Notes under the pieces: generated by a model
Databases searched by the model: none
The model's input: only the letters and a program-made list of their open reading frames with translations
What the model was told of the DNA's origin: nothing
Assembly (NCBI GenBank): GCA_026003335.1
Contig: BPHB01000001.1
Span: 1,885,001-1,949,000, forward strand
Direction of reading: 5' to 3'
Length of the DNA stretch: 64,000 nucleotides
Source: Chitinophagales bacterium
GTDB taxonomy: Bacteria > Bacteroidota > Bacteroidia > Chitinophagales > CAIOSU01
Translations under genes and position numbers: made by a program
Shown: piece after piece, positions 6,527 through 40,113 of the stretch
Layout: the number at the start of each line of letters is the position of its first letter
Position numbering within the stretch: the stretch's first letter is position 1

Positions 6527-7270
6527 TTATCCCGGTGCCACTTCAGCAACCAGGGTAATCTGCAATTGGATGTTGTTATCAATCACCTTGTCTTTAACCA
6601 ATTCTGGGAAAAAGGAGTCAGAGCGGTAGCGGATATCCCATTCGGTTCGGTCAATAGTAATATCGCTTGAAGCTGTTATCTGGTTGTCGCCAAGATTGAT
6701 AGTGGCTGGAAAGCTCAAGGTTCGGGCAATGCCTTTTATCAGAAGATTCCCGTTTATGACGTAATTCCCTGCTTGGCTGGTAGTATCAGGTTGTGCGGAT
6801 AGTAGTTCAAAAACAGCTTCTGGGAAGTTAGTCACGTCAAAAAAATCAGCGCTTTTTAAATGTTCTTCCAGTTTTGCCAATCCTTCACTGGAGGAAATGC
6901 TGTACATATCCGCAATCAGTCTCCCCTGCAGATTGCCCAAAGAGTCAATGGTCAGAAATCCCTCCTTAAAATCAAGGGTGCCGCTGTGTTTCTTGGGAGT
7001 AAATTTATTTTTGCCCTGCCAGACAATCATGCTCTGTTCCGTATTGAGCACAAAAGTTCTTCTGACAGCGGCAGAAGCGGGGTTTTCTGTTGCAGCAGGG
7101 GCTGCAATCTCCGAAGAAGTCACCTTGTTTTCAGGTTGCCGGTTGCAACTCATAAAGAGAATAGCCTGCATACCTGGCCATAGAAGCACAACCGTTGCTA
7201 TGGATAAAAGGCGTATGGCACAAGATAAGCCTTGAGTATTCAGGCTATAAGTTTGCGGTGTCCTACCCAT
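6527..7270 (-). CDS. YceI family lipid-binding protein, probable lipoprotein
   Basis: YceI-like beta-barrel of the lipocalin type; the family binds isoprenoid or fatty-acid chains in the periplasm. A hydrophobic stretch at about residues 18-40 ends in FMSC (C42), a plausible lipobox, followed by a Ser/Ala/Pro linker and the YceI domain from about residue 70. The start at ATG 7270 overlaps the end of paaN by 31 bases. The only later ATG (7171) would leave too short a signal segment, so 7270 is kept. Probably cotranscribed with paaN. Ligand unknown. Confidence 0.8.
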   Translation of the reverse strand: MGRTPQTYSLNTQGLSCAIRLLSIATVVLLWPGMQAILFMSCNRQPENKVTSSEIAAPAATENPASAAVRRTFVLNTEQSMIVWQGKNKFTPKKHSGTLDFKEGFLTIDSLGNLQGRLIADMYSISSSEGLAKLEEHLKSADFFDVTNFPEAVFELLSAQPDTTSQAGNYVINGNLLIKGIARTLSFPATINLGDNQITASSDITIDRTEWDIRYRSDSFFPELVKDKVIDNNIQLQITLVAEVAPG

Positions 7271-8907
7271 ACAAATCTTTTTATCACATATTCCGGGTTG
7301 GTGAAACTGGCATTACCCGCTGGATTGCCTCCGGTAACATGAAAGTCTGAAAAGGCCGCATGCTGGTTGACCCAGATAAATCCATGGAAATTCAGGGTTA
7401 CCGGCACAAACACGCTCTCCATTTCTTCCATGATCTTTTTACCCAGCTGTTCATCGGTGGTATAGGCTGCACAGGTAATGGCCCCCTGTTCGGCTCCCAT
7501 TTGTTTAGCCAGGGCGATAGATTCCTCTACATCTTTAGTTTTTATGACCACGATAATCGGTCCGAAAAGTTCTTTGCCGTAAATTGCCCGATCTGAGGCA
7601 CTGGCTTCAAGGATAACCGGAGATTTGACACGCGCTTTTTCAAATTCAGGGTTTTTCACATCGCCAGGGGGAAGAATTACCTTGCCCAGCGAAACTGAAT
7701 GCTCAATACGATGCATTGTAGCTTCACTTTGAATAGCGCCCAGTGTGCCGGGGCCTGCTTTCGGATTAAGGGCAAGCCCTTGAACGTATTGCTTCAGCTT
7801 TTCAATAACTTCTTCGTAGGAAATCATTTTATCGCCAGACTTCACTCCTGAAGCTGGTATAAAAAAGTTTTGCGGAGCCGTACACATTTGCCCTGAGTAT
7901 AAAGAAACTGCAAAGGCAAGGTTCTGAAGCGTAGCATCCAGGTTTTCGGAGGCATGCAGAATTACGGAGTTCACTCCCGCTTTTTCAGTAAAAACCGTTT
8001 TACCGTGAGTTACCAGTGACTCAATATAATTTCCGAAAGTGCTGCTACCAGTATAATCAATCAGCTTTACTGCCGGATGCTCTGCCAGTTGCTTGGTGAT
8101 TAGTTTTTCCGAAGAGTCAACCGCCATCTGCACCACATGCGGGTCAAAACCTGCGGCTTGCAGAGCCTGCTGCAATTCGGCTATAACAATAGCAATGGGA
8201 AGTACAGACTTTGGATGAGGCTTAACAATAGCGGTGTTGCCCGTTATCAGCGTAGCATAAAGGCCGGGAACCGTGTTCCACACCGGGAAGGTAGAGCACC
8301 CTATCACCAGACCAATACCTTTAGGCACTGCCCTAAAGAATTTTTGCACCTTTACACTACTGTCTTTTCCCATTGGTTTTTCCCATAGCACTTCATCGGG
8401 AAAACGCTTCAGTTCTTCATAACCCATAGCTATAGCCTCAAGAGCACGGTCGTTGGAGTGTGGCCCTGAAGCCTGAAATGACATGATGAATGACTGCCCG
8501 GTAGTATGCATGGTCGCATAAGCAATGGTGAAAAATCTTTCTTTAATACGTTCCAGCGAATCCACCAGCACATTCATCCGCTCATCCGGATTAGCCTTCC
8601 GCCATGTACTCCATGCCTGCGTGCTGCGTTGAATCAAATCCTCAACTGCAAATCGGGGGTAGCGTATCCCCAGAGGTTCCATTGTGTAGGGAGAAACTTC
8701 TTCCCCTATGAACCCTTCGGGTTTGTTTTGTAGTAAGAGGTCAAAGTTTTTATTCAGCAGCGACTGAAATTCTTCCTGTCCCCTTTTAGGGGCCTCCTCT
8801 CCGTAAGCTTTGGGATGCTCCGGATAGGCAGCATAAAAATCTCTGCGGTGAATGGCTTTTACAGCCTTATCCACAATGGACTGGTAAGTGTCAGTAAGCA
8901 GGGTCAT
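7240..8907 (-). CDS. paaN: PaaN-type aldehyde dehydrogenase (phenylacetate degradation family)
   Basis: Aldehyde dehydrogenase of 555 residues that matches the stand-alone PaaN family, distinct from bifunctional PaaZ. It should oxidise an aldehyde in ring-opened phenylacetyl-CoA catabolism. The catalytic cysteine lies in SGQMCTAPQN, the general-base glutamate in FTEKAG and the cofactor segment in VIGCSTFPVWN. No other paa genes (paaABCDE, paaG, paaK) are in the window, so phenylacetate as the true substrate is unproven. Divergent from the fadE gene with 261 bases between them, which hold the TetR operator. Confidence 0.85.
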   Translation of the reverse strand: MTLLTDTYQSIVDKAVKAIHRRDFYAAYPEHPKAYGEEAPKRGQEEFQSLLNKNFDLLLQNKPEGFIGEEVSPYTMEPLGIRYPRFAVEDLIQRSTQAWSTWRKANPDERMNVLVDSLERIKERFFTIAYATMHTTGQSFIMSFQASGPHSNDRALEAIAMGYEELKRFPDEVLWEKPMGKDSSVKVQKFFRAVPKGIGLVIGCSTFPVWNTVPGLYATLITGNTAIVKPHPKSVLPIAIVIAELQQALQAAGFDPHVVQMAVDSSEKLITKQLAEHPAVKLIDYTGSSTFGNYIESLVTHGKTVFTEKAGVNSVILHASENLDATLQNLAFAVSLYSGQMCTAPQNFFIPASGVKSGDKMISYEEVIEKLKQYVQGLALNPKAGPGTLGAIQSEATMHRIEHSVSLGKVILPPGDVKNPEFEKARVKSPVILEASASDRAIYGKELFGPIIVVIKTKDVEESIALAKQMGAEQGAITCAAYTTDEQLGKKIMEEMESVFVPVTLNFHGFIWVNQHAAFSDFHVTGGNPAGNASFTNPEYVIKRFVWVGHRKLIA

Positions 8908-9076: not shown

Positions 9077-9109
9077 TTTGGCAATATTCCACGGGTTATC
9101 CTATCTTTA
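9077..9109 (+). promoter_or_regulatory. Predicted promoter of fadE
   Basis: Bacteroidota-type promoter: -33 box TTTG at 9077-9080, a 21-base spacer and -7 box TATCTTTA at 9102-9109 (one mismatch to TAnnTTTG). Transcription would start near 9116, exactly where the operator palindrome begins. Found by eye, not mapped. Confidence 0.5.
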
Positions 9110-9115
9110 CAGGCG

Positions 9116-9139
9116 TTTACCAAACGATTGTTTGGTAAA
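9116..9139. promoter_or_regulatory. TetR-type operator in front of fadE
   Basis: Perfect 10-base inverted repeat TTTACCAAAC-N4-GTTTGGTAAA placed at the predicted transcription start of fadE, about 30 bases before its ATG. The same core (TTACCAAAC-N4-GTTTGGTAA, same 4-base spacer) lies in front of the tetR gene at 33.5 kb. A bound repressor here would block initiation. Confidence 0.8.
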
Positions 9140-9168
9140 TACATCTTTTTAACCTAAATCCTTTTATC

Positions 9169-11643
9169 ATGGAATTACCTTTTCATGGAATTTTTACAGC
9201 TTACCCGGCAGTGGCCGCAGCCGTAATCGTGGCGGCTATCCTGCTCATCGGTTATACCGGAGCACCCATGTGGACGCTGGCTGCCTTTATTTTCTTATAT
9301 GGACTAGGTGCCCCGTTGTGGTTGCTTTCCATAGCTGCCATTGTTGTAGTGGTCTTTAATATCAAGCCGCTGCGGGCTCAACTGGTCTCCCGTCCATTAA
9401 TGAATGCTCTCAAATCTGCCGGATTTCTGCCTACGATTTCCGAAACCGAACGTGTTGCCCTGGAGGCCGGAACCGTATGGGTTGACGGAGAATTTTTTTC
9501 CGGCAAACCCAATTTTAAAAAGATACTCAAAGAGTCATACCCCGACCTTACAGAAGAAGAGAGGGCTTTTCTGAACGGCCCCACCGAAGAATTGTGCCGT
9601 ATGACTAACGACTGGCAAATCTTCAAAGAGCAGGACCTGCCGGCCGAAATATGGGATTTTCTTAAAAAAGAGCGGTTCTTTGGCATGGGTATTCCGAAAG
9701 AATACGGAGGACATGGCTTTTCTGCCAATGCCATGAATGCCGTCATTGCCAAAATTGGTACCCGATCCATTCCACTGTGCGTAGATGTAATGGTTCCCAA
9801 CTCCCTGGGACCAGCCGAACTACTCACCCACTATGGAACTAAGGAACAAAAAGAATACTACTTACCGCGCCTGGCAAGGGGTGAGGAAATTCCCTGCTTT
9901 GCCTTGACTGAGCCCAATGCCGGTTCTGATGCCGCTTCTATATCCTCTTATGGTGAAGTTTTCAGAGGAGAAGACGGCAAACTTTACATCCGGCTCAACT
10001 GGAATAAACGTTATATCACCCTTGCCGCAGTATCTACTCTGCTGGGCCTTGCCTTTCAACTGCGTGACCCCGAAAATCTGCTGGGTAAAGGCACTTTCCC
10101 CGGCATCACCTGTGCTCTCATTCCTACCAACACACCGGGAGTTGTATTGGGCAGAAGGCACAATCCCCTCGGGGTGCCTTTTATCAATGCGCCTACTGAA
10201 GGACATGATGTAGTAGTATCGGTTGATCAAATTATTGGAGGACCTGCTCAGGCGGGTAATGGTTGGAAGATGTTGATGGAAACCCTTTCGGGCGGACGCG
10301 GCATCTTCCTGCCAGCTATGGGGAGAGGCGGTTCCAAGATGATCAGCCTTGCCGGAGGGGCCTATGCCATGGTACGCCAGCAGTTCAATACTCCCATTGG
10401 AAAGTTTGAAGGTATTGAAGAAATTCTCGGTCGTATCGGGGGCTATACCTATATCCTTGAAGCCCTGAGCCGATTCACCTGCGGAGCCCTGGACAAAGGC
10501 AAAAAGCCGGCAGTGATCTCGGCAATAGCTAAATACAATGCCACAGAGTTCAACCGCATCGTAGTAAATGATGCTATGGATATGATAGGCGGGGCAGGCA
10601 TTGTTCTGGGCCCAAGAAATCTCATCGGTCACGGATATATCTCCCTCCCCATCGGCATAACAGTAGAAGGCTCAAACATTGTTACCCGTTCGCTTATCAT
10701 ATTCGGTCAGGGTTTAATACGCGGACATAAATATGCTGTAAGGGAGATGGAAGCCATCATGCAAAATGACGTTGCAGGCTTTGATGCCGCCTTCTGGGGG
10801 CACATCAATATGACGGTAAGAAATGGTTTCCGCTCCGCGATGCTGAGCCTTACGCGCGGCTACCTGGCAGGATCACCGGTAAGCGGACCTACAGCAAAAT
10901 ATTATCGCAGGCTTTCGTGGGCCTCTGCTACGTTTGCCTTTATGTCAGATGTGGCATTGGCCACCCTGGGCGGCAGACTGAAGATGGCCGAGAAACTATC
11001 AGGCTATTTTGCTGATGCCTTATCATGGCAATATCTGGCTGTTTGCGCCCTGCGCAGGTTTGAAGCCGAAGGACGAAAGAAAGAAGATCTGCCCTTTGTA
11101 AAATGGGCATGTGAGCAGGCCCTGTATAAAATTCAGGATGCATTTGACAAAATATTCAACAACTTCCCTGTACCCGGCCTCAGCGCCATCCTCGGGGGGC
11201 CGGTAGCTCTGTGGTCAAGAATCAATCCGCTGGGCGTAAGACCATCTGATAAGCTAGGACATCAGATTGCAGAAGCCCTTCTGAATCCGGGTCCGGTAAG
11301 AGAAAGCCTGAAAGAAGGCGTATATCTGCCCAAGGAACCCCATGAGCCCCTCGCGCAACTGGAGGAAGCTTTCAGGCTGGTGCATGAGAGTATGGACGTT
11401 TACAACAAAATCAGAAAAGCCGTGAAAGCCAAAAAGCTGAAAAAAGGACGGGCCAAGGAACTGCTCAACGATGCCCTGGAAGCCAAGATTATCAACCAGG
11501 CAGAATACGATCTCATACTGAAGACCGAAAAGCTACGCAATGAAGTGATTCGGGTAGATTCCTTCCCGTTAGAAGAAATGCCTGTGAATCTGCCCGTAGT
11601 CACAGCTCCTCCTGCATCCAGAAAGCAAACGGCTGCTACCTGA
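9169..11643 (+). CDS. fadE: Long-chain acyl-CoA dehydrogenase, membrane FadE type
   Basis: Acyl-CoA dehydrogenase of 824 residues, the length of E. coli FadE and far longer than soluble ACADs. The first about 65 residues hold two to three hydrophobic membrane segments. The FAD-dependent dehydrogenase core follows (LTEPNAGSDAAS near 245; GGRGIFLPA near 370). The C-terminal part from about residue 550 is the DUF1974-type extension of FadE, ending in a charged helical tail. It introduces the trans-2,3 double bond in acyl-CoA, the first step of beta-oxidation, feeding electrons to the respiratory chain. Monocistronic, with a TetR operator at its promoter and a strong terminator after it. Confidence 0.9.
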   Translation: MELPFHGIFTAYPAVAAAVIVAAILLIGYTGAPMWTLAAFIFLYGLGAPLWLLSIAAIVVVVFNIKPLRAQLVSRPLMNALKSAGFLPTISETERVALEAGTVWVDGEFFSGKPNFKKILKESYPDLTEEERAFLNGPTEELCRMTNDWQIFKEQDLPAEIWDFLKKERFFGMGIPKEYGGHGFSANAMNAVIAKIGTRSIPLCVDVMVPNSLGPAELLTHYGTKEQKEYYLPRLARGEEIPCFALTEPNAGSDAASISSYGEVFRGEDGKLYIRLNWNKRYITLAAVSTLLGLAFQLRDPENLLGKGTFPGITCALIPTNTPGVVLGRRHNPLGVPFINAPTEGHDVVVSVDQIIGGPAQAGNGWKMLMETLSGGRGIFLPAMGRGGSKMISLAGGAYAMVRQQFNTPIGKFEGIEEILGRIGGYTYILEALSRFTCGALDKGKKPAVISAIAKYNATEFNRIVVNDAMDMIGGAGIVLGPRNLIGHGYISLPIGITVEGSNIVTRSLIIFGQGLIRGHKYAVREMEAIMQNDVAGFDAAFWGHINMTVRNGFRSAMLSLTRGYLAGSPVSGPTAKYYRRLSWASATFAFMSDVALATLGGRLKMAEKLSGYFADALSWQYLAVCALRRFEAEGRKKEDLPFVKWACEQALYKIQDAFDKIFNNFPVPGLSAILGGPVALWSRINPLGVRPSDKLGHQIAEALLNPGPVRESLKEGVYLPKEPHEPLAQLEEAFRLVHESMDVYNKIRKAVKAKKLKKGRAKELLNDALEAKIINQAEYDLILKTEKLRNEVIRVDSFPLEEMPVNLPVVTAPPASRKQTAAT

Positions 11644-22882: not shown

Positions 22883-25800
22883 TCACGGATTTACTACAAA
22901 TGTGCCGTTGCTGAGGATGTTCATATTTGCTCCCGTCTGCACTTCGGCCGTTTTAGCCTTGCCGGTAATGGTAGCTGGCACTTCAAGCGTACCGCTGATG
23001 ACATGCGTTTTATTCACCGACTCATAGTTATCGCTGACAGTGATTTTATTGGAAGCACTTTTCTCTATATCCACATTATAGAATTTCTTCCCGTTGGAAG
23101 TGATGGTATTATTCGTATTGCCCTTGAATACCACCTTGCTGGTATTATAAGTAAATGTAGAGGTAGCCTCGCTTGTCCAGTTGCCATGCACGTTTAATAC
23201 ATTACTACCGGATATAATTAACGTAGCATCATTATCCAGATAGAGGTTGCGGGCGCTTTCCGTACTGCTCACTGTAGCATGGTTGGTGCCGCTCACGCAA
23301 TTGACGGCTGTAGTTTGGCTAACGATGTACACATTTGTGGTGGATGTGGGTATGCTGGTTGCCGCCACGAAGTTGCTGCCATTGAGCACATACCAGTTGC
23401 TGGCGCTGTTCCAGTTGGCGCTATTCAGCCCGTTCCACAAATAGTCATTTGTTGCCATTACCGGACTCACCGAAGCATTAATACTGGTCAGGTTGGGCTG
23501 TGAAATGACCACTGCTGTCTCAGTCCCATCGGCAAGGTTGCATCCCGAAACCGTGGCATTATACACCGGCCGGTAATAATAGGTGCCTGCCAGCGGAGGC
23601 GTGTCGGGTGAAGTCACTGTGGTGCCGCTGCCGCCCGGAGAGGTGGCGCGCACCCAACTTACGCTACCCCCCACTCCGCCACTAAATGAAGCATTGAGGG
23701 TAATCGGAGCGCTCAGACAGGCACTCGTGGGGGTTACCACATTTGTTGCCCAGGTGGGGTCAGCCACAACGGTGAGGGTTACGGAAGCACTGGTGGCATC
23801 GCAGCCGATACCGGTGGCAGGTAAGCGCCTGCGGTACTGGAAGCTGCCGGTAGCCGTAATACCGCTGATGGTCATCGTTGCAGAGGTAGTATTCGTGTAG
23901 GTTGCTCCTGCTGGCGTATTGTTAGACACCGTCACCCAAGCGCTGCCGTTGTAATATTCCCAAACGGGGTTCATGGTTCCCGTGCCGCCTGTGAGGTTGG
24001 AGGTAACATTGCTGGAGCCTCCCACACAGATGGAAGGATTGCTGAGCACGGGATTGCTTAAAGCCGGATCAATCACCACTGTCCAGCTTACGGAGTTCAC
24101 ATTTGAATTGCAGCCACTGGCGCTGCAATTCCGCCTGGATTCCATGATTACCGTACCGCTGGCCGTTGCCGTGATGTTGGGCACAGAAGTGCTCCATGCC
24201 GACCATGAGGTGCCGCCATTGGTGGAGTAGCGCATTTCGTCCTGGCAGGAGCCGGCACCTCCGCTGCCAAACTGGGTGACATTCACGGTGAGCTGAGCGC
24301 CAATACATACATTGGCATCCGATGGATTTTTGCTGATGAGGGGGGCAACCGGGTCATCCACAACAAACCACAGGAGAGATCCATTGCCGGCAGGTTCCCA
24401 TGCTGTATTGTTGCATCCGGCTCCCGATGTAGTTCTTTTGGTTTGGAAATAATATTCACCTGTGCCGTAAGTAGCGGTATTGATGGGGCCGGTGTAGGCA
24501 TTCCACGAGCCACTGGTGCCTTTGCGCCATTGAATTTCATCGGTAGCAGAAATGCCGCCCGTGCCACCGGTTATGGTAGGCACCAGCGAGGCACCAATGC
24601 AAACATACTGCTCTGAGGGACTGGACCGGGTCACCGCACCCGCAACCGGTTGCGCAAAAATTTCCCATTCCACAGCAGGCGTTTCGGGAGAAGCTTCACA
24701 AGCCAGGCCATCGCAGACCCTGCGGGCTTTAATACGCACATAACCGGGGGCAACGCCCGCTGTGAGCGATGGGATGGCAGTTTGCCAGTCAGACCATACC
24801 CCGTCTGTATTCTGATAAGCATATTCATATACACAGGTACCGGCACCTCCTGTGCTACCGGTAGCGGCATTGACCGATAAACCCGTGGTGCCTTCGCAAG
24901 CCTGCGCAAAATTGGATCCGGCAGTTTTTGTAAGGTCATTCGGTTGGGTAGGCTGAGGGGTGATAGTGAAGGAAGCATACACCGGACGGCTCCAGCCGCA
25001 ACAGATTTCCCTCACACGATAACGCACTTTGTAACTGCCTGCAGCCAGTGCAGAAACATCCACAAGGGGATTGCTGGAGTTAATGGTTATCAGCGGACTG
25101 TTGGCATTGTTGGTCACCGCGCTGAAAATCACCCATTCGTATTCTACCTGCGTTCCCCAGGCATTGGTATGTGTGAGCTGAATTTCCGCTCCGGCACCTT
25201 CACACAACGAAGTGGGAGAAATGGTAATAACAGGCAGGGGACGATTGTCAGAAACAATACGCAGAAAGCCGGGGAAATCAGCCGGTGCAGTGAGGTCATA
25301 GGTTGCGTTGGTTGTGGTGCTGTAGATTTTGATATTTGTAGAGCTGGTCGTATAGGAGGTTTGTGTTTCATTGCGGTCATTGACAAAGGTGAGGCCGGAG
25401 GGAAGCGTCCACGTGCCGGAAGCTTTGTAGAGGTTGATTTCCGAGTTGATGCAGGGTTTGCCCTTGTCATGCAGAATGCGCACTACCGGAGATGTAGGTA
25501 TAGAGGTGGAGGGGTTAGAGGCGCCTGAGCCCACCACATACATCTGATAGGACACTCCTGGCGCGCCATCCTGGCCTCTGCCGCCAGCACCTCCTGGTTT
25601 GCCGGGCCTACCTCCTGCGCTGGTTGCACGATCACCGGAGCAGCCTCCATTGCCTGAGCCACCATTGCCACCGGAACCTCCGGCTCCTCCGCTTCCGCCT
25701 GAACCTCCGGCTCCGGCTGTACCGCTGCTTACCACGATATCTACTAAGTTGGCGCCTGTATTGGAATTGTTTCTGTAAATACCGAAGGAGCCTCCCCCGC

Positions 25801-28800
25801 CAAAACCACCGAAGCCGCCCTGGCCACCACCGCCACCACCTCCGCCACCGCCTCCGGAGTTACCATAGTTGTTATTCCAATACCAGCAATCTTCCCCCGA
25901 GCTGGATCCTCCGCCTGCACCACCACCGCCACCACTGCCATGTCCGCCCTGGGCAGCCTGTGAACTTGGCACATAGTAAGTGCCAAAGGAATGGTTAGGA
26001 CTAGCTGGGGAGCCAGGCGAATAACTGGGTGTGCCGTTGTTACCGGCAGTGGCATTATCATAGGCCCATTCGCCATCTGCACGGGAGCAACTGTGTGAGC
26101 TGTAATTATCCTGACAGGCGGTACCCGGAGTAGTGCCTCCTGATCCTCCGGCCACATTGGTTGACTGGCCGGCCGAACCATTACAGGGTCTGCTTCTGCG
26201 CCCGTTGCCGGCAGCATTGCCTCCGCGTCCGCCATTGCCTCCGTCACCTCCCCAGGAATTATTACCACCGGCACCTCCAGCGCCTCCGCTCAGAAAATCG
26301 GAGTCGTTGCAGGAATCTGTTTGCCCACTACCTCCATTACCTCCATTAGCGCCATTGGCACCGTTTGCTCCGTTTTCGCCTGCGCTGGCATTGCCGGAAG
26401 TAAACTGGCACCGGATGATATTGTAGTTAGAAGCGCCATTGAGCCATAAAGCATAGTTGGAGCTGCCTCTTCCACCCGATGAGGTGCCGGTTACTGCACT
26501 GGTAGTTACATTTATGTCCTGGAGGGTCCAATTGCTGGTGCCATTGGCAGCCATGCCAATGAGGTGGCGGGTGGTGGAGCTTACCTCAGTAACTGTAGGA
26601 TTAGAGCCAGTAGTAGTGGCGCTAAAGGTAATGTTGGTGCTGCCATCGTTTTGTTTTCTCCAGCCATTGGCTGCATCATATCTGCCTTCAATAATTACAT
26701 TGCTCGGGATGTCTACCCGTTGCGTCTCAGTATAGTTGCCGGTGGCCATGCGGATGTGGGTGCGCCCGCCCAGTTGGGAAATGGCATAGGCAAGCGTGGC
26801 ATAGGGATTATCCGGACCACCTCTATCAGAAGCATCCACACCACCATTAGCTGCAGGCCTCACATAGGCATAATTGCAATGCGGAGAGGCTACCTCTACA
26901 TTACAGGTGGATTGAAAACTTCCGCAACTGGTGTTATAGGTTACGGTAATCGTGTAGGTTCCCAGGGCAGTGGGTGCCGTCCATGTAACCGAACTGCCGG
27001 TGCCGGTGAAGGAGCCTCCTGAAGCCGACCAGGAATAGCTGGTCACCTGGTTGACCGCGCCAATGGCAGGCGGCTGCAGGGTGCCCAGAATGTGGCTGGA
27101 GCCGGGCAACACCAGGCCCCCGCAATTGGAAAACTGAATGGGTGGCGGATTATCGCCTGTGCCGTGCGGTGAGGGAAAGCCCGCAGGCGCGTTGCTGGTG
27201 CCATTCATTACATTGACTACCACGCGTGCGCAATTGGAATTGACTGTCCTGCCGCTCAAGCCGGATGGGCAATCGGAAGCGGTAACTACCACTCTATAAA
27301 GACGTGTGCCGGCAATCTTGGGGGGAGTATAGGTGGCATTGGTTGCCCCACTGATATTTTGCCAGTTGCTGGCTCCTGAGCAGGCAGTGTTGTTGGAAAC
27401 CTGCCACTGATAGGTAAGTGCCGTGCCTGAAGCCGTTACGCTGAGGGCGGGCATGGAGCCGCTAGTGCAAATATAAATGTCAGAAGGATGAGCCGTAATG
27501 GTGGGTTTTACGCAGTAATCAATGCGGATATAGGGCTTCAGCGTGGAATGCTGATAACCGTAGATATGATGATAGTCGCCATCATTGCCGGTACAGGCAC
27601 ATACACCTAAAAAACAACCGGTGCAGCAGTCATCTCCCCCGTTGTAAGCCCAGCCCATCGTGATTTGCCCTCCGGATAAGGCATTGGTGACATCGGTAGT
27701 GCTGGCAGCCTGGCTTTGCCAGCCGGTGCCGTTTTTGCCGGTGCCATTGTAGTAGCCATTGTTGTTGCGGACACGCTGACCGTCCACATCGCAACTGGGC
27801 TGGTTGGCCAGATACTCATTATACTGAACCATGCCGTGTTTGAGAAAGATGGCGTCACCGCAGGTTCTGCCACCATAGCGATACCAGTAGGTGGTAGCGG
27901 AGTTAATCACTGCATTAGTCGGTATGGAAGAGATATTAAATGAAGCATATCCATCCATATAGGGGTTTTCAAAGGGCCAGGTATCATCAATCCAGCCATA
28001 GCTGATATCATATACATAAACCCGTCCGGCATACGTGCCTACATAGCAATACCAACTTCCTGAATTATTGGGTCGGTTAGCAGTATGGGTGGGCCAGGTG
28101 CCTCCGGGATAATAGTCGGTAACCGGATCAATCGTTACCGGAAATTTGCGGTGGGCGGCTTCCAACCAGCTCAGCGGAACTAGTATATAGGTTGTGTACG
28201 AGCCGGCATTCTTTTTCTTTAAGACATAGCTGCCCTCCATCACGGCATCCGGGTTTCTTTTGGTTGTATCAAATTCTGTGTCACTACAGGAACCCTGAGC
28301 CATACGCTCAAAATAAACCGGACGCAGGATATTCAACATTGGCTCGCCTGAAGTATTTTTAAATGAGATGTCCTGAAGAAACTGCTGCGAAGCATTGTTT
28401 GCTGAAAAGGGTGGTTTTTCCACGCCTGTTCCTGCAAGCGCCCATTCCGCGGGTGCTTTTATTTCTTCGCGGAAAGCCAGATAAGCTGCCCCCGCCGGTT
28501 TGGAGGCCAAAAAAGCCGGACTGCGGAGGATATAATTCAGCTTTTTGCTGGTGATGGAATTTAGAATTACGGCATCGGTATAGGGGAAAATGTCTGCATA
28601 TACGAGGCTGTCCCGGCTCGCTTTGCCCCGGGATGCGGCATTGGCTTTTATTTCCTGCAGCGGTCTTCCATTTGCATCAAGCCACACCAGTACCGGCTCA
28701 GCCCAGTCTTCGTAGAGCTGACCATGGATTTTTGTGACAATGGACAAACCGGGACGTTCCGGAAAATACATTTTGTGTTTGTTGTGCACCGCAGCCCATT

Positions 28801-29128
28801 TACGATTGGTGTATTCCTTGCCTTTGTTTTCCAGGGGAAATGAAAGTATGGTCAGCCAATGACCGTTTTCCCGGTAGTGCAGAGGACCCGCCCCGATAAT
28901 TGCCGTATAGCTGCCATCAGGATTTTTAAAGTGCTTGGAGAATTCGGTACGTAGCGCCACCACCTCCTGCTCCATGCTGTAAGCACCAAAGGGGCCTTGT
29001 TGGTCCTGAAAATAAAGTCGCAGGGCTTCTGTTTCATCTGTTTGATTACGTTCACGCAGTTGATTTTGCGAAAAAACGGTAGCGAAGCATGTGCCGCTGA
29101 TAAGGACGAAGAGTAAATACTGCTTCAT
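22883..29128 (-). CDS. Giant secreted surface protein: beta-helix with glycine-rich insert and Ig-like repeats
   Basis: 2081 residues with a Sec signal (ends near FSQNQ). An N-terminal region of about 350 residues includes CBM-like and spore-coat-like segments. An Ig/PKD-like domain rich in cysteine follows (about 540-740). A DUF1565-like parallel beta-helix start lies near 752-910 (VRPAANGGVDAS, IRMATGNYTETQRVDIPSN). Glycine-rich tracts built of GGN, GAN and GGA triplets span about 915-1190. Then come several about 90-residue Ig-like repeats, each with a cysteine near the start (CIGASL, CIGAQL, CVGGSS), and beta-helix-like strands to the end. No T9SS type A or B sorting domain is visible; the last residues are NGTFVVNP. 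Probably an adhesin or sheath component. Function unknown. Confidence 0.8.
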   Translation of the reverse strand: MKQYLLFVLISGTCFATVFSQNQLRERNQTDETEALRLYFQDQQGPFGAYSMEQEVVALRTEFSKHFKNPDGSYTAIIGAGPLHYRENGHWLTILSFPLENKGKEYTNRKWAAVHNKHKMYFPERPGLSIVTKIHGQLYEDWAEPVLVWLDANGRPLQEIKANAASRGKASRDSLVYADIFPYTDAVILNSITSKKLNYILRSPAFLASKPAGAAYLAFREEIKAPAEWALAGTGVEKPPFSANNASQQFLQDISFKNTSGEPMLNILRPVYFERMAQGSCSDTEFDTTKRNPDAVMEGSYVLKKKNAGSYTTYILVPLSWLEAAHRKFPVTIDPVTDYYPGGTWPTHTANRPNNSGSWYCYVGTYAGRVYVYDISYGWIDDTWPFENPYMDGYASFNISSIPTNAVINSATTYWYRYGGRTCGDAIFLKHGMVQYNEYLANQPSCDVDGQRVRNNNGYYNGTGKNGTGWQSQAASTTDVTNALSGGQITMGWAYNGGDDCCTGCFLGVCACTGNDGDYHHIYGYQHSTLKPYIRIDYCVKPTITAHPSDIYICTSGSMPALSVTASGTALTYQWQVSNNTACSGASNWQNISGATNATYTPPKIAGTRLYRVVVTASDCPSGLSGRTVNSNCARVVVNVMNGTSNAPAGFPSPHGTGDNPPPIQFSNCGGLVLPGSSHILGTLQPPAIGAVNQVTSYSWSASGGSFTGTGSSVTWTAPTALGTYTITVTYNTSCGSFQSTCNVEVASPHCNYAYVRPAANGGVDASDRGGPDNPYATLAYAISQLGGRTHIRMATGNYTETQRVDIPSNVIIEGRYDAANGWRKQNDGSTNITFSATTTGSNPTVTEVSSTTRHLIGMAANGTSNWTLQDINVTTSAVTGTSSGGRGSSNYALWLNGASNYNIIRCQFTSGNASAGENGANGANGANGGNGGSGQTDSCNDSDFLSGGAGGAGGNNSWGGDGGNGGRGGNAAGNGRRSRPCNGSAGQSTNVAGGSGGTTPGTACQDNYSSHSCSRADGEWAYDNATAGNNGTPSYSPGSPASPNHSFGTYYVPSSQAAQGGHGSGGGGGAGGGSSSGEDCWYWNNNYGNSGGGGGGGGGGGQGGFGGFGGGGSFGIYRNNSNTGANLVDIVVSSGTAGAGGSGGSGGAGGSGGNGGSGNGGCSGDRATSAGGRPGKPGGAGGRGQDGAPGVSYQMYVVGSGASNPSTSIPTSPVVRILHDKGKPCINSEINLYKASGTWTLPSGLTFVNDRNETQTSYTTSSTNIKIYSTTTNATYDLTAPADFPGFLRIVSDNRPLPVITISPTSLCEGAGAEIQLTHTNAWGTQVEYEWVIFSAVTNNANSPLITINSSNPLVDVSALAAGSYKVRYRVREICCGWSRPVYASFTITPQPTQPNDLTKTAGSNFAQACEGTTGLSVNAATGSTGGAGTCVYEYAYQNTDGVWSDWQTAIPSLTAGVAPGYVRIKARRVCDGLACEASPETPAVEWEIFAQPVAGAVTRSSPSEQYVCIGASLVPTITGGTGGISATDEIQWRKGTSGSWNAYTGPINTATYGTGEYYFQTKRTTSGAGCNNTAWEPAGNGSLLWFVVDDPVAPLISKNPSDANVCIGAQLTVNVTQFGSGGAGSCQDEMRYSTNGGTSWSAWSTSVPNITATASGTVIMESRRNCSASGCNSNVNSVSWTVVIDPALSNPVLSNPSICVGGSSNVTSNLTGGTGTMNPVWEYYNGSAWVTVSNNTPAGATYTNTTSATMTISGITATGSFQYRRRLPATGIGCDATSASVTLTVVADPTWATNVVTPTSACLSAPITLNASFSGGVGGSVSWVRATSPGGSGTTVTSPDTPPLAGTYYYRPVYNATVSGCNLADGTETAVVISQPNLTSINASVSPVMATNDYLWNGLNSANWNSASNWYVLNGSNFVAATSIPTSTTNVYIVSQTTAVNCVSGTNHATVSSTESARNLYLDNDATLIISGSNVLNVHGNWTSEATSTFTYNTSKVVFKGNTNNTITSNGKKFYNVDIEKSASNKITVSDNYESVNKTHVISGTLEVPATITGKAKTAEVQTGANMNILSNGTFVVNP

Positions 29129-33445: not shown

Positions 33446-33489
33446 TTTATTTGGCTTTACCAAACATGCGTTTGGTAAGGCCAAATAAA
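33446..33489. promoter_or_regulatory. Long TetR-type operator palindrome
   Basis: Two 20-base arms separated by ATGC that match at 19 of 20 positions. The inner core TTACCAAAC-N4-GTTTGGTAA (33457-33478) is the same as the fadE operator. The outer part adds TTTATTTGGC on the left and its mirror on the right, so CCAAA/TTTGG half-sites occur four times. The core covers the -33 box of the tetR promoter, consistent with autorepression. Confidence 0.82.
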
Positions 33490-33502
33490 GACCTTACCTT
33501 TG
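33471..33502 (+). promoter_or_regulatory. Predicted promoter of the tetR-fad operon
   Basis: -33 box TTTG at 33471-33474, a 20-base spacer and a perfect -7 box TACCTTTG at 33495-33502. Transcription would begin around 33508, almost at the ATG (33511), so the mRNA would have nearly no leader. The -33 box is inside the right arm of the operator. Confidence 0.6.
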
Positions 33503-33510: not shown

Positions 33511-34104
33511 ATGCCGAAACAAAAAGTCAATAAAGAATATGTCGTACACCAGGCACTGAAGATGTTTCGCAAAAAGAGTTACCATCAGTGTACAATGGCC
33601 GACATAGGTGAGGCAGTTGGTTTGCTGAAAGGCAGCATTTATCACTACTTCAGCAGCAAGGAAGAACTGATGAAAGAAGTGATGATCTATGTACACAAGT
33701 TTTTCAAAGACCAGGTATTTGTCCATGCTTATGATAAAAACCTGCCGGCCCGCGTTCGTCTGGAGAAAATGATCCAGGTAGCCGAGCATGTTTTCCTTGG
33801 CCCTGAAAACGGAAATATCATGGGCAACATCGGTCTGGAGACAGCACATGTCAATCCGGAATTTCAGGAGCTGATACAAGTATTTTTCAAACAGTATATG
33901 AAGGCACTGAAAACCATTTATGCAGAAACCTACCCTGAGGAAAAGGCCCAGGAACTGGCCGAACAGGCCATGGCCGAAATGGAAGGATCGCTCATGCTGT
34001 CACGCATATTTAACAAGAAAGATTATTTTCTCAAAGCCAATCGCAGAATTCTGGAGCGCATGGACACTGTTTCAAACGGGCGTTTGGCAAAAACCAGGAA
34101 TTAG
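33511..34104 (+). CDS. TetR-family transcriptional repressor, probable fatty-acid-degradation regulator
   Basis: 197 residues from ATG 33511; an upstream in-frame ATG at 33418 lies in front of the promoter and operator and is rejected. N-terminal TetR helix-turn-helix at about 24-45 (MADIGEAVGLLKGSIYHYF, SSKEEL). The C-terminal ligand domain is of the AcrR/FadR-like type. First gene of tetR-fadN-fadA-fadE, the order also seen for the fadNAE operon controlled by the TetR-type FadR in Bacillus subtilis. The shared palindrome at its own promoter and at fadE (9.1 kb) supports repression relieved by acyl-CoA; the ligand is inferred. Confidence 0.88.
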   Translation: MPKQKVNKEYVVHQALKMFRKKSYHQCTMADIGEAVGLLKGSIYHYFSSKEELMKEVMIYVHKFFKDQVFVHAYDKNLPARVRLEKMIQVAEHVFLGPENGNIMGNIGLETAHVNPEFQELIQVFFKQYMKALKTIYAETYPEEKAQELAEQAMAEMEGSLMLSRIFNKKDYFLKANRRILERMDTVSNGRLAKTRN

Positions 34105-34146
34105 GTATTTTTGTTAACCTATTTACAAACCATAAAAAACACCATC

Positions 34147-36585
34147 ATGGATGCAGTAGCTGAAAAACCCAAAGCACAAACCCCTGCCAGAAAAACCCAG
34201 AGACACATCCGCTCGGTAGCAGTTCTGGGTTCCGGTGTGATGGGCTCCCGCATTGCCTGTCACTTTGCGGGCATTGGCGTCAAAGTGCTCCTTCTGGACA
34301 TTGTTCCCAGGGACCTGCCTGAAAACCTGAAAAACGACCCCGCTGAGCGCAACAAAATTGTAAACAGTTCTCTCCAGGCCGCCCTGAAAGGCAAACCGGC
34401 CGCCATCTATGATACTGCCTTTGCTTCCCGCATCACTACCGGCAACTTTGAAGACAATATGAAAGATATAGCTTCTGTTGACTGGGTATTTGAAGCCGTC
34501 ATTGAAAACCTGGAAATCAAGAAGAAAGTCTTTGCCGAAGTAGAAAAATACCGCACTCCTGGAACTATCGTTTCCACCAACACTTCCGGTATTCCGCTGC
34601 ATAAAATGCTGGAAGGACGCAGCGAAGATTTTCAGAAAAATTTCATAGGTACCCACTTCTTCAACCCACCCCGTTATCTGAAACTGCTGGAAATCATTCC
34701 GACTCCCAAAACCGATCCCGCTCTTGTGGAATTCATGATGGAATATGGCGATAAGTATTTAGGCAAAACCACTGTGCTCTGCAAAGATACTCCAGCCTTT
34801 ATCGCCAACCGCATCGGGGTGATGAGCGTCATGTCGGTTTATCATCTGATGAATGAACTGGGCCTTTCCATCGAAGAAGTAGATGCACTCACCGGCCCCA
34901 TATCCGGCAAACCCAAAACGGCAACCTTCCGGCTTGGTGACCTCATCGGCATTGATACCCTGGTAAAAGTGGCCAACAACGCCTATCAGGACTGCGTCAA
35001 CGATGAATCCAGGGACCTTTTTGTAGTGCCCGACTATATCAATAAAATGGTCGAAAAAGGCTGGACAGGAGACAAAGCCGGACAGGGCTTCTATAAAAAG
35101 GTGAAAACCCCGGATGGCAAAAAAGAAGTCTACGTCATCGACCCAAAAACACTGGAATATAAGCCCCTCGCCAAACCAAAACTGGAAATCGTCAGTGCAG
35201 TGAAAGGCGTGGAAGACCTTCGTGAGCGCCTTCTCCTTATCCATAAAGCCACAGACAAGGGTGCCGAATTTTTAAAGAAACTTTCGGCCTATGTGTTTCA
35301 ATACTGCACCAACCGCATTCCGGAAATAGCCGATGACCTTTACAAAATTGACGATGCAGTAAAAGCCGGCTTCGCATGGGAGCTCGGACCCTTTGAATCA
35401 TGGGATGTCATTGGCGTTGAAGAAGGAGTGAAATACATGGAAAGCATCGGCAAAAAACCCAATCAATGGGTGTATGACATGCTTGCAAAAGGCATCACTT
35501 CTTTCTACAAAGTAGAAAACGGAGTGCGCAAATACTATGACATTCAAACCAAAGCCTACAAGGCCATCCCCGGACGCGAGGCCTTTATTCTGCTGGACAA
35601 CCTGCGCGGACAGAAACCGGTATGGAAAAATGATGGTACCACCCTCCATGATATTGGGGACGGAGTCCTCAATCTGGAGTTTCACAGCAAAATGAATTCG
35701 CTGGGACCTGAGGTCATTGAAGGCATCAATAAAGCTATTGACATTGCCGAAAACGAAGGCTGGAAAGGATTGGTTATTGCCAACAATGGTCAAAACTTCT
35801 CTGTTGGAGCCAATCTGTTTATGATTGTGATGATGGCCGTACAACAAGAGTGGGATGAACTGGAACTGGCCGTGAGGACTTTTCAGAACACCATGATGCG
35901 TGTGCGCTACTCGGATATCCCTGTGGTAGTTTCACCCCATAATATGACCCTCGGAGGCGGATGCGAGCTTACCCTGCATGCCGACAAAGTGGTTGCTGCA
36001 GCAGAAACCTACATTGGGCTGGTAGAAGTTGGCGTAGGCCTGATTCCCGCAGGTGGCGGCACCAAAGAACTTGTGCTACGCGTTTCTGACTCCTTCCGCA
36101 AAGGCGATGTGCAACTTAATCGCCTCCAGGAAGCTTTTGTCAACATTGCAACTGCCAAGGTAGCCACCTCAGCCTACGAAGCCATGCACATGGATATCCT
36201 GAAGAAAGATCGCGACATCGTCATTCTCAATAAAGACCGGGCTATTGCCGCTGCAAAACAAGAAGTGCTTCGCCTGTATGACCTGGGCTACACCAGACCT
36301 ATCATGCGAGAAGACATCACTGTTCTCGGACGCACTGCACTCGGGGGCCTGTATTCAGGCTCCTACGGCTTCTACTTCGGCAACTACGCCACCGAGCATG
36401 ATTATCTCATCGCCAGAAAACTGGCCTATGTGATGACCGGTGGCGACTTGTCCGGTGAGCAAAAAGTATCAGAGCAATATCTGCTTGACCTGGAACGGGA
36501 GGCCTTCCTCTCGCTCTGTGGTGAGCAGAAAACGATAGAAAGAATGCAGCACATGCTGGAAAAAGGGAAACCGTTGAGAAATTGA
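34147..36585 (+). CDS. fadN: 3-hydroxyacyl-CoA dehydrogenase/enoyl-CoA hydratase, FadN type
   Basis: Bifunctional beta-oxidation enzyme of 812 residues from ATG 34147; a TTG at 34111 is less likely. Domain order is dehydrogenase first (LGSGVMGS, residues 28-34; ENLEIKKKVF; THFFNPPRYLKLLEI), then the helical C-terminal dehydrogenase domains, then enoyl-CoA hydratase from about residue 500 (NFSVGANLF; LGGGCEL; EVGVGLIPAGGG). This order is that of Bacillus FadN and opposite to E. coli FadB. It lies 42 bases after tetR. It carries out hydration and NAD-dependent oxidation, passing 3-ketoacyl-CoA to the thiolase. Confidence 0.95.
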   Translation: MDAVAEKPKAQTPARKTQRHIRSVAVLGSGVMGSRIACHFAGIGVKVLLLDIVPRDLPENLKNDPAERNKIVNSSLQAALKGKPAAIYDTAFASRITTGNFEDNMKDIASVDWVFEAVIENLEIKKKVFAEVEKYRTPGTIVSTNTSGIPLHKMLEGRSEDFQKNFIGTHFFNPPRYLKLLEIIPTPKTDPALVEFMMEYGDKYLGKTTVLCKDTPAFIANRIGVMSVMSVYHLMNELGLSIEEVDALTGPISGKPKTATFRLGDLIGIDTLVKVANNAYQDCVNDESRDLFVVPDYINKMVEKGWTGDKAGQGFYKKVKTPDGKKEVYVIDPKTLEYKPLAKPKLEIVSAVKGVEDLRERLLLIHKATDKGAEFLKKLSAYVFQYCTNRIPEIADDLYKIDDAVKAGFAWELGPFESWDVIGVEEGVKYMESIGKKPNQWVYDMLAKGITSFYKVENGVRKYYDIQTKAYKAIPGREAFILLDNLRGQKPVWKNDGTTLHDIGDGVLNLEFHSKMNSLGPEVIEGINKAIDIAENEGWKGLVIANNGQNFSVGANLFMIVMMAVQQEWDELELAVRTFQNTMMRVRYSDIPVVVSPHNMTLGGGCELTLHADKVVAAAETYIGLVEVGVGLIPAGGGTKELVLRVSDSFRKGDVQLNRLQEAFVNIATAKVATSAYEAMHMDILKKDRDIVILNKDRAIAAAKQEVLRLYDLGYTRPIMREDITVLGRTALGGLYSGSYGFYFGNYATEHDYLIARKLAYVMTGGDLSGEQKVSEQYLLDLEREAFLSLCGEQKTIERMQHMLEKGKPLRN

Positions 36586-37032: not shown

Positions 37033-38208
37033 ATGCAAGAAGCATATATCGTAGCCGGTTATCGTTCCGCGGTTGGTAAAGCCAACCGGGGCGGATTCAA
37101 GTACCTTTCCCCTGTGGATCTGGCAAAGGAAGTTATTGAATACCTGTTAAAATCCGTTCCGCAGTTAGATCCGGAAAGAATTGATGACCTTATTGTAGGC
37201 AATGCCGTCCCAGAAGCCGAGCAAGGCCTGCAAATGGCACGGTGGATTGCCGTGCGCTCGCTTCCTCTGGACGTGCCGGCAGTCACTGTAAACCGTTACT
37301 GTGGCTCCGGAGTAGAAACCATAAACATGGCTACGGCAAAAATTCGTGCCGGCTTTGCAGATTGCATTATCGCGGGCGGCTCCGAGAGTATGTCGCTGGT
37401 GCCAACGGTAGGCTGGAAAACCGTTCCCAACTATCACGTGGCTAAAGAATGGCCCCATTATTTCTTAGGCATGGGTCATACCGCTGAAAAAATTGCTGCC
37501 GAATTCAAGATAAGCCGTGAAGAGGCCGATGTATTTTCCTTCCAATCACACCAGAAAGCCTTAAACGCCATCAAGAACGGCTTCTTCAAAGATGAAATCG
37601 TGCCCGTGAAGGTGGAAGAAGTCTATTATGCCGATGGGAAAAAACAAACCAAAACTTTCACAGTTGATACGGACGAAGGACCGCGTGCCGATACCAGCCT
37701 GGAAGCGCTGGCTAAATTGAAACCGGTATTCTCCAACGGAGGCGTAGTAACGGCAGGAAACTCCTCCCAGACTTCTGATGGAGCCGCTTTTGTGATTGTG
37801 ATGTCAGAACGTATGGTGAAAGAATTAAACCTCAAACCGATAGCCCGCATGGTTACCTGTGCCTCTGCCGGGGTAGATCCAAGCATCATGGGTATCGGGC
37901 CGGTAAAAGCGATACCCAAAGCACTGAAGCAAGCCAACATGCAACTGGATGATATTGACCTCATTGAACTAAACGAAGCCTTTGCGACTCAGGCCTTGGC
38001 AGTGATTAAAGAGGCCGGACTGAACCCCGATAAGGTCAATGTCAACGGAGGCGCCATCGCCCTCGGTCATCCCCTCGGATGCACCGGCACCAAGCTTACT
38101 ATTCAAATTATCAATGAACTGAGAAGAAGAAAGAAAAAGTATGGAATGGTTACAGCCTGTATCGGAGGAGGTCAAGGTATTGCCGGCATTTATGAACTGC
38201 TCAATTAA
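37033..38208 (+). CDS. fadA: Acetyl-CoA C-acyltransferase (3-ketoacyl-CoA thiolase)
   Basis: 391-residue thiolase that cleaves 3-ketoacyl-CoA to acetyl-CoA and a shortened acyl-CoA. Nucleophilic cysteine in NRYCGSGVET (near residue 91), the active-site histidine in GGAIALGHPLGCTG and the second cysteine in ACIGGGQGIAG. ATG start at 37033. Follows fadN in the same direction and precedes the acyl-CoA dehydrogenase. Confidence 0.95.
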   Translation: MQEAYIVAGYRSAVGKANRGGFKYLSPVDLAKEVIEYLLKSVPQLDPERIDDLIVGNAVPEAEQGLQMARWIAVRSLPLDVPAVTVNRYCGSGVETINMATAKIRAGFADCIIAGGSESMSLVPTVGWKTVPNYHVAKEWPHYFLGMGHTAEKIAAEFKISREEADVFSFQSHQKALNAIKNGFFKDEIVPVKVEEVYYADGKKQTKTFTVDTDEGPRADTSLEALAKLKPVFSNGGVVTAGNSSQTSDGAAFVIVMSERMVKELNLKPIARMVTCASAGVDPSIMGIGPVKAIPKALKQANMQLDDIDLIELNEAFATQALAVIKEAGLNPDKVNVNGGAIALGHPLGCTGTKLTIQIINELRRRKKKYGMVTACIGGGQGIAGIYELLN

Positions 38209-38319: not shown

Positions 38320-40113
38320 ATGTCAACAGCTACTTCCCCTACAAAAGTCCTGCAAGGCGGAGAATTTTTAATAAAGGACACCGATGCTCAAGCTGTGTTC
38401 ATCCCGGAGGAAATCAATGAGGAGCAGCGCATGATCCGGGATACTTGTAATGATTTTATTGAAAAGGAAATTCATCCGGTGTATGACCGCATTGAGAATC
38501 AGGAAGAAGGCCTCACACCTTCGCTTATTGAAAAAGCTGGAGAACTGGGGTTGTTGGGGCTCGCCATTCCGGAAGAATACGGTGGGTTTGGAAAAGATTT
38601 CAACACCAACACCGTGATGATGGAAACCATGAGCAATGCAGGTTCTTTTTCGGTTTCCTTTGGTGCACATATCGGCATCGGCACCCTTCCCATCCTGTAC
38701 TTCGGCACCGAAGAGCAAAAAAGAAAATACCTTCCCAAGCTTGTAACGGGCGAACTGAAAGCAGCTTACTGCCTTACTGAACCAGGCTCTGGCTCCGATG
38801 CACTGGCTGCAAAAACACGTGCCGACCTGAGCGAAGACGGCAAATACTATGTACTCAACGGCCAGAAAATGTGGATCACCAATGCAGGCTTTGCAGACAT
38901 CTTCATTGTGTTCGCGAAAATCAACGGAGAGAAATTCACCGGCTTTATTGTGGAGCGCAATTCTCCCGGATTTACCGTAGGCGCTGAAGAAAAGAAGCTC
39001 GGCATAAAGGGCTCTTCCACACGTCAGATATTTTTTGAAAATGTCAAAGTGCCGGCCGAAAATGTGCTCGGTGAAATCGGTCAGGGACACAAGATAGCTT
39101 TCAACATTCTCAATATCGGCAGATTCAAGCTGGGCGCAGGCGTGCTGGGCGGTGCTAAGAAAGCCGCCACCATGGCTATACAGTATGCCAATGAACGGCA
39201 TCAATTTGGCGCACCCATAGGCTCCTTTGGCGCTATTAAGCACAAAATCGGAGAAATGGCCTCCCGCATCTATGCTCTGGATGCAATGACCTATCGCACC
39301 AGCGACCTCATTGACCGGATGGAAAAACAACTGCTTTCTGAAGGGAAAGACTTCGCTACGGCCGTACAGACCGCCGCTGAGGAATATGCCATTGAATCTT
39401 CCATCATGAAAGTATTTGGCTCCGAAACCGCATTCTTTGTGGTGGACGAAGCCCTGCAAATTCACGGTGGTATCGGCTATTCGGAAGAATACCCTGCAGC
39501 ACGTGCTTACCGCGATGTACGCATTAACCGCATTTTTGAAGGGACCAATGAAATCAACCGCATGCTCATTATTGACATGCTGATGAAAAAAGCCATGAAG
39601 GGCAAGCTGGATCTGATGACTCCCGGCATGGCTATTCAGAAAGAACTCACCTCCGTGCCTTCGTTTAGTAACGGTGAAAGCGGACTGTTTTCAGCCGAAA
39701 AGCGGGCATTGAAAAATCTTAAAAAAGCCTGTTTGCTGGTAGCCGGCAGTGCAGCTCAGAAACTGATGATGAAACTGAAAGATGAGCAGGAAATCCTGAT
39801 GTGTCTGGCAGACATGCTTATTGAACTCTATGCTTGCGAGTCAGCGCTGCTGCGCACAGAAAAGCTCACAGCCACGCGGGGCGAAGAGGCAACGACCATT
39901 CAGCGTGCCCTGATGCAGGTGTACTTCAGCGATGCTATTGAAAGAATACATCTGCATGGTAAGCATGCCCTGGCCGCTTTTGCTTCAGGAGATGAGCTGA
40001 AGATTCTACTCATGGGACTTAAGCGTTTCACAACCTATGATGTAATCAATACCAAAGAACTGCGCAGAAAAATTGCAGACAAGGCCCTGGAAGCAAACCA
40101 ATACTGCTTCTGA
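38320..40113 (+). CDS. fadE: Acyl-CoA dehydrogenase (FadE of the fadNAE type)
   Basis: 597 residues, the length of Bacillus FadE, with a normal ACAD core plus a C-terminal helical extension of about 190 residues. Visible motifs are YCLTEPGSGSDA, WITNAGFAD and the catalytic glutamate in RIFEGTNEINR. Oxidises acyl-CoA to enoyl-CoA, passing electrons to ETF. Last gene of the operon. The window therefore has two unlike FadE enzymes; this one has no membrane segment. Ends 12 bases from the convergent aroE. Confidence 0.93.
   Translation: MSTATSPTKVLQGGEFLIKDTDAQAVFIPEEINEEQRMIRDTCNDFIEKEIHPVYDRIENQEEGLTPSLIEKAGELGLLGLAIPEEYGGFGKDFNTNTVMMETMSNAGSFSVSFGAHIGIGTLPILYFGTEEQKRKYLPKLVTGELKAAYCLTEPGSGSDALAAKTRADLSEDGKYYVLNGQKMWITNAGFADIFIVFAKINGEKFTGFIVERNSPGFTVGAEEKKLGIKGSSTRQIFFENVKVPAENVLGEIGQGHKIAFNILNIGRFKLGAGVLGGAKKAATMAIQYANERHQFGAPIGSFGAIKHKIGEMASRIYALDAMTYRTSDLIDRMEKQLLSEGKDFATAVQTAAEEYAIESSIMKVFGSETAFFVVDEALQIHGGIGYSEEYPAARAYRDVRINRIFEGTNEINRMLIIDMLMKKAMKGKLDLMTPGMAIQKELTSVPSFSNGESGLFSAEKRALKNLKKACLLVAGSAAQKLMMKLKDEQEILMCLADMLIELYACESALLRTEKLTATRGEEATTIQRALMQVYFSDAIERIHLHGKHALAAFASGDELKILLMGLKRFTTYDVINTKELRRKIADKALEANQYCF

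Follow-up and report, generated by a model that had tools for sequence, protein, structure and literature searches.

A palindromic operator shared by tetR and fadE points to a TetR-controlled beta-oxidation regulon in Chitinophagales

Introduction

Why should a fadE gene of a Chitinophagales bacterium carry, just upstream of its start codon, the same palindrome as a tetR gene in the same window, by which we mean the whole 64,000-nucleotide stretch of DNA analyzed here? A regulon of fatty-acid degradation has been described in Bacillus. Such regulons are also known in Proteobacteria (PMC5343134), and one is described in an archaeon. For Bacteroidota, none was apparent by title or abstract start in the open-licence literature among the matches listed, and RegPrecise 3.0 is described as holding one Bacteroidota collection, that of the Bacteroidaceae. 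An earlier note on this DNA had tied fadE to a fatty-acid regulon under the local TetR protein. Our analysis strongly supports such a regulon and widens it to tetR, fadB, acyl-CoA dehydrogenases, etfB, a second thiolase and an SDR, while the fadE link appears specific to this lineage. We propose that the TetR protein very probably acts as a local repressor of fatty-acid beta-oxidation through the operator TTACCAAAC-N4-GTTTGGTAA, from which it would be released by acyl-CoA.

Results

Exact copies of the 22-bp core TTACCAAAC-N4-GTTTGGTAA lie at fadE (9117-9138) and at tetR (33457-33478). The spacers, which the earlier note had called identical, are equal in length (N4) but differ in their letters, GATT at fadE and ATGC at tetR. 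The fadE operator, O1, has all 18 specified bases exact and lies 30 nt 5' of the start codon (Table 1). Within the 64-kb window, these two sites were the only ones at up to three mismatches to the 22-bp core; 100 dinucleotide shuffles of the window gave a mean of 0.02 copies, and none of them reached two. We then extended the search to the genome of origin (3,905,038 bases in 24 contigs). Random occurrence of the motif across the genome, which the earlier note had named as counting against its reading, was not seen: O1 and the tetR operator, O2, were the sole matches at up to two mismatches, and allowing three added five places (two for the reversed control), all five within open frames longer than 450 nt.

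Table 1 Features of the window discussed in the text.
Feature	Coordinates	Strand	Description
Predicted fadE promoter	9077..9109	+	TTTG 9077-9080, 21-nt spacer, TATCTTTA 9102-9109; score 9/10
Operator O1 at fadE	9116..9139	.	Perfect 24-bp palindrome TTTACCAAAC-GATT-GTTTGGTAAA
fadE	9169..11643	+	824 aa, large E. coli-type acyl-CoA dehydrogenase; Pfam ACDH_C 7.2e-96
Operator O2 at tetR	33446..33489	.	44-bp palindrome; core TTACCAAAC-ATGC-GTTTGGTAA at 33457-33478
Predicted tetR promoter	33471..33502	+	TTTG 33471-33474 in O2 right half, 20 nt, TACCTTTG 33495-33502; score 10/10
tetR	33511..34104	+	197 aa TetR-family regulator; Pfam TetR_N 2.3e-14; presumed O1-O3 binder and autorepressor
Operator O3	34069..34090	.	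Imperfect copy GTTTCAAACGGGCGTTTGGCAA in tetR 3' end, 56 nt before fadB
Predicted fadB promoter	34083..34113	+	TTTG 34083-34086 inside O3, 19 nt, TATTTTTG 34106-34113; score 10/10
fadB-like 3-hydroxyacyl-CoA dehydrogenase / enoyl-CoA hydratase	34147..36585	+	Pfam/NCBIfam
fadA-like acetyl-CoA C-acyltransferase (thiolase)	37033..38208	+	Pfam/NCBIfam
Acyl-CoA dehydrogenase, Bacillus FadE type	38320..40113	+	NCBIfam NF058590 843.6 bits, cut-off 600

The window holds no third perfect copy, as the earlier note had stated, although an imperfect one, O3, had been overlooked. O3 has three mismatches to the pattern TTAYCAAAC-N4-GTTTGRTAA, and none of 300 shuffles of the 196-nt region equaled it. The short core CCAAAC-N4-GTTTGG at up to one mismatch is uninformative alone, with 16 places in the genome of origin against 14 for the control; among the 13 further places with a locus (L132-L144), O3 itself is L138, L141 lies outside long frames and 11 lie inside them, while one place has no locus. 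A site at up to four mismatches was found between the two genes in 11 of 49 tetR-fadB pairs, counting the window's (10 of the 48 others). The mismatches number one in L030, two in L047, L048, L049, L011, L009 and L013, three in the window and L058, and four in L046 and L059. Nine of these 11 sites lie 48-79 nt from fadB, with 102 and 134 nt for the remaining two. In the other 38 of the 49 pairs, nothing matches before fadB at up to four mismatches; the genes almost touch in most of these. In two genomes (L227 and L232), a small ORF beginning MHNFKNIIAWQK adjoins a second operator downstream of tetR.

Flavobacterial sigma-A promoters are described with the -7 consensus TAnnTTTG, the -7 box of Flavobacterium spanning -12 to -5 (PMC9723704). 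Promoters were scored with the pattern TTTG-N18-22-TANNTTTG, for which the maximum is 10. At fadE, the core operator begins 7 nt past the predicted -7 box. If the Flavobacterium -7 geometry applies here, fadE transcription would begin close to 9114 and the palindrome would cover roughly +3 to +26. The palindrome that the earlier note had placed exactly at the fadE start is thus real and perfect over 24 bp, but it lies just past the predicted start. At tetR and fadB of the window, the predicted -33 box TTTG sits in the right half of the operator, and the predicted tetR leader measures a few nucleotides only. The same arrangement, a -7 box that scores 5/6 or better and lies 18-21 nt from the operator's own TTTG, was found at 42 of 69 gene-linked sites, which were hand-picked from the loci and include several close relatives, so that they are not independent; the corresponding figure for flank shuffles was 3.7%. 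This overlap of operator and predicted promoter supports repression in which the bound protein would hide the promoter.

O2 is longer than the shared core, with 20-nt arms that are 95% complementary. Its outer arms, TTTATTTGGC/GCCAAATAAA, are absent at fadE and may form a second pair of half-sites (TTTGGC/GCCAAA). The protein encoded downstream belongs to the TetR family (PF00440, 2.3e-14; PF21993, 5e-8), and its C-terminal domain is assigned by Pfam to TetR_C_13_2, which is LmrA/YxaF-like. An AlphaFold model (pLDDT 89) is all-helical with a normal TetR fold and matches TetR chains up to Z 20.7, the closest being 3on4. Structures of PA2196-DNA, FasR, AibR and FadR follow at Z 16 to 19.5, so that no single ligand class is singled out; both AibR with isovaleryl-CoA and Bacillus FadR stand at about 16. 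Six residues of the helix-turn-helix region (G37, K40, G41, S42, Y44 and H45) are invariant across 49 homologues. The protein scored below the cut-off of every named regulator model in NCBIfam, and an Rfam scan of 33380-34150 returned no family at the gathering score. Divergent from tetR lies a POT-family peptide transporter (31741-33360), whose start is 96 nt from O2. It is possibly co-regulated with tetR; no TTTG-N-TANNTTTG promoter was spotted for it by eye. A 2081-aa ORF elsewhere in the window (22883-29128) has no Pfam match at 1e-10.

In the bacterium's own family, all seven genomes have a match at up to two mismatches, and in all seven a site lies upstream of tetR-fadB; G002-G005 carry an extra site at another acyl-CoA dehydrogenase gene, 3 nt 5' of its start codon. 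Phylogenetic conservation was checked across 198 genomes of the order: TTAYCAAAC-N4-GTTTGRTAA occurs exactly at 49 sites in 38 genomes, with none for the reversed control, and at up to one mismatch in 66 genomes (control, 11). To type each exact site, we used tblastn to find a gene oriented away from it whose start lay no more than 450 nt off, a rule under which a small intervening gene is possible. By this measure, 45 of the 49 lie upstream of tetR or a beta-oxidation gene, the targets being tetR (20), acyl-CoA dehydrogenase (9), fadB (8), etfB (4), SDR (2), a second thiolase (1) and fadE (1); the 20 tetR sites include the window's own, which the script had assigned to the divergent transporter. 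A further exact site lies about 0.5 kb before fadB (L186), and three fall within unrelated open frames (L015, L033 and L193). The SDR resembles 2,4-dienoyl-CoA reductase. etfB was identified by Pfam in L124 and by similarity at the other loci. Sites with one mismatch add a carboxyl transferase, an enoyl-CoA hydratase, an Fe-S protein and BioB as targets, at one to four loci each. Among 69 loci that the searches of the family and the order yielded at 0 to 2 mismatches, the site falls within an unrelated ORF in 15. The operator arms conserve their letters, not merely their pairing.

Beyond the order, the motif at up to one mismatch matched 59 of 395 genomes of the class, with a lower but non-zero control. 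Here we examined 29 loci (L145-L173) and five further sites. TetR adjoins the site at two of the 29 loci (L156 and L159), and at the other 27, which lack TetR, the site lies within an open frame longer than 450 nt; four of the further five, all of family f25, are inside ORFs, and that of G444 (L178) adjoins tetR-fadB. As a marker outside the order, the motif at up to one mismatch was therefore set aside as unreliable.

A TetR homologue at E<=1e-20 is present in 88 of the 198 genomes of the order. It accompanies the exact motif in 36 of 38 genomes, compared to a presence in 52 of the 160 genomes without the motif (Fisher p 4.7e-13, a guide only since the genomes are related). The two motif genomes without TetR, G098 and G179, have the motif solely inside an unrelated open frame. 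Conversely, an exact site is present in only 36 of the 88 genomes with TetR; the others have degenerate or differently spaced ones. At 20 extra tetR loci, 15 of them from genomes without a site at up to one mismatch, the best upstream site had 2 to 5 mismatches in every case, a range that stands without a shuffle control.

The differently spaced sites share the half-site. An abutting form, TACCRAHC.GTTTGGTA, occurs in 29 of the 198 genomes (control, 9) at 43 places. Of these, 34 precede tetR (16), fadB (11), acyl-CoA dehydrogenase (6) or an Fe-S protein (1); for the remaining nine, the fetched DNA shows none of these genes within 450 nt, and some of the nine lie at contig ends. Six genomes of family f8 combine both spacings with one TetR homologue each (E<=1e-20). 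In G084, G090 and G168, the site at tetR is abutting and that at etfB is exact N4; G156 is alike but for one mismatch in its N4 site. G056 has abutting sites at tetR, fadB and acyl-CoA dehydrogenase and an N4 site (one mismatch) at etfB, and G174 has abutting sites at fadB and acyl-CoA dehydrogenase and N4 sites at tetR (one mismatch) and etfB. In G056 (L214, L242, L260 and L123), the abutting sites are the perfect palindrome TACCAAACGTTTGGTA. The N4 spacer itself is non-random: G comes first or C last in all 46 gene-linked exact sites compared to one of the three in-frame sites, and 26 of 27 typed sites fit RANC; the window's tetR spacer ATGC, outside these 27, does not.

We tentatively suggest, at slightly less than even odds, that one TetR repressor reads the half-site TACCAAAC at two spacings, with a fixed CGTTTGG half and a second half that shifts by 4 bp and thereby tunes repression. 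The halves stand 4 bp apart in most exact-motif genomes; in others, chiefly those of one family, they abut at tetR, fadB and acyl-CoA dehydrogenase genes (from TACCRAYC.GTTTGGTA to the perfect TACCAAAC.GTTTGGTA), with etfB staying N4. If the TTTG of CGTTTGG doubles as the -33 box, promoter and operator would evolve as one unit. Two staggered dimers on a site with a non-random spacer would account for both spacings. A deep TetR group of about 35% identity was considered as the source of the abutting half-sites and rejected, as homologues 50-54% identical to the window's TetR have them too.

As for fadE, its product scores 1006 bits with NCBIfam NF007000 (PRK09463; subfamily cut-off 600) and 877 with the narrower FadE_coli model NF038187, below its cut-off of 1300; the N-terminus is hydrophobic as judged by eye. 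Scoring the best 3 to 5 candidates per genome, we found this FadE in three of 198 genomes within the order and, among 295 sampled from the class, in the genome of origin only. In the 5.4 kb fetched for its homologues in G006 (72%) and G012 (65%), no site appeared at up to four mismatches. On these sequences, the link between fadE and the operator is local to this lineage, being found in one of the three genomes of the order that have this FadE. A plasmid collection gave 97 matching records, all below 60% identity, with the best 12 of the 97 at 48-55%. Divergent from fadE lies an aldehyde dehydrogenase gene (7240-8907; PaaN_2, 628 bits against a cut-off of 579).

Discussion

From the computed sites, their positions and conservation, their co-occurrence with TetR and their overlap with predicted promoter elements, we infer binding, repression, an effector and the operon structure as follows. 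A TetR dimer, or a pair of dimers, would bind TTACCAAAC-N4-GTTTGGTAA. At tetR and fadB, where the TTTG of the -33 box lies in the right half-site, the promoter would then be hidden, and at fadE, where the operator follows closely on the predicted start, initiation or early elongation would be blocked. After uptake and activation of fatty acids, the C-terminal domain would bind an acyl-CoA, most probably a long-chain one, and the repressor would leave. This would induce tetR, fadB and the fadA and acyl-CoA dehydrogenase genes that follow it, and fadE farther away, all at the same time, while TetR would limit its own expression.

Other readings of the same sites have to be set against this one. 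The protein could act as an activator, or in a mixed role, at fadE or other targets, as PsrA is described as activating as well as repressing (PMC13104628); with the operators of the window lying on a predicted -33 box or just past a start, positions that fit repression, we regard this as improbable. It is also quite improbable that another regulator reads the sites and tetR is merely one of its targets. The promoter of a regulator may carry a site for a different protein, and binding by TetR is a prediction here, yet nearly all exact-motif genomes encode TetR, and the two exceptions carry the motif only within an unrelated frame.

The fadE palindrome might instead act as an RNA hairpin, a terminator or attenuator in the leader. 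It would indeed be part of the fadE RNA from the predicted start, and a terminator scan flags 9115-9140 plus ACATCTTTTT (one found compared to 0.1 in shuffles). However, this sequence coincides with the -33 box at tetR, at fadB and at the majority of the other genes (42 of the 69 picked sites); there it precedes the predicted start and is thus left out of the gene's own RNA. Conservation of the arms also extends to their letters rather than to pairing alone. From the position of the operators relative to the promoters, we judge an RNA attenuator at fadE to be very unlikely. That the fadE copy is a chance match is hardly credible. The fadE genes of G006 and G012 lack a conserved site, but here all 18 specified bases match, the start codon of a beta-oxidation gene follows 30 nt on, and the 3.9-Mb genome holds a single other match at up to two mismatches. 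Repression by the local TetR protein is our preferred reading.

By function, the proposed switch is analogous to PsrA, FadP and Bacillus FadR. The C-terminal domain of PsrA is of another type than the TetR_C_13_2 domain found here. The Bacillus FadR operator likewise differs from ours. FadR is nonetheless a TetR regulator of fatty-acid degradation with the same fold (3whb/3whc, Z about 16) and with stearoyl-CoA bound in 3whc; the FadR model NF053878 gives our protein 34.5 bits, below its equivalog cut-off of 200. PDB entry 2fbq, which we take to be PsrA, is absent from the 51 PDB sequence matches of our TetR at E<=1e-3, and PsrA is not among the best 50 structure matches listed, which excludes nothing.

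PsrA of Pseudomonas and other Proteobacteria is described as regulating beta-oxidation, binding its own promoter and responding to long-chain fatty acids (PMC13104628), and as repressing a FadE homologue (PMC5722320). Its site is given as C/GAAAC-N2-4-GTTTG/C, with TTCAAACN4GTTTGAA at rpoS (PMC13104628). The core CAAAC-N4-GTTTG is the same, and both CAAAC-GATT-GTTTG and CAAAC-ATGC-GTTTG of the window fit the PsrA consensus; the N2-4 range of that consensus is also a precedent for variable spacing (PMC13104628). Our system differs in its longer arms (TTACC...GGTAA), its Bacteroidota host and the -33 box inside the operator. FadP of Betaproteobacteria, predicted by comparative genomics (PMC5343134), is likewise a TetR regulator of fatty-acid degradation; it comes from another phylum, and the likeness is drawn from its description. 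The best NCBIfam matches of our protein are to AcuR and BetI-like regulators, at 60.3 bits with NF051457 (cut-off 247) and 53.1 bits with TIGR03384 (cut-off 201.3), both far below cut-off, and their acrylate and choline contexts differ from the beta-oxidation context here. In the present system, half-sites are found at two spacings.

The exact motif, with no control match in 198 genomes, offers a usable regulon for a large order. It helps to pick out which acyl-CoA dehydrogenases serve fatty-acid use, and the TetR homologues become candidate acyl-CoA sensors. It also suggests that a rare enzyme such as FadE may join an existing switch by gaining one operator. With regard to history, we infer that the regulon is old in the order, whereas the fadE connection looks recent or else lost elsewhere. 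The rare fadE was probably acquired and then wired to the regulon in this lineage, its rarity in the sampled genomes being the one basis for acquisition by transfer. Outside the Bacteroidota, at three loci from Alphaproteobacteria / Candidatus Odyssella (L069, L072 and L076), a related TetR (35-38%) adjoins fadA-fadB, with the site TTCCCAAAC-GAAC-GTTTGGTTC at L069; these loci may reflect an older spread of the system.
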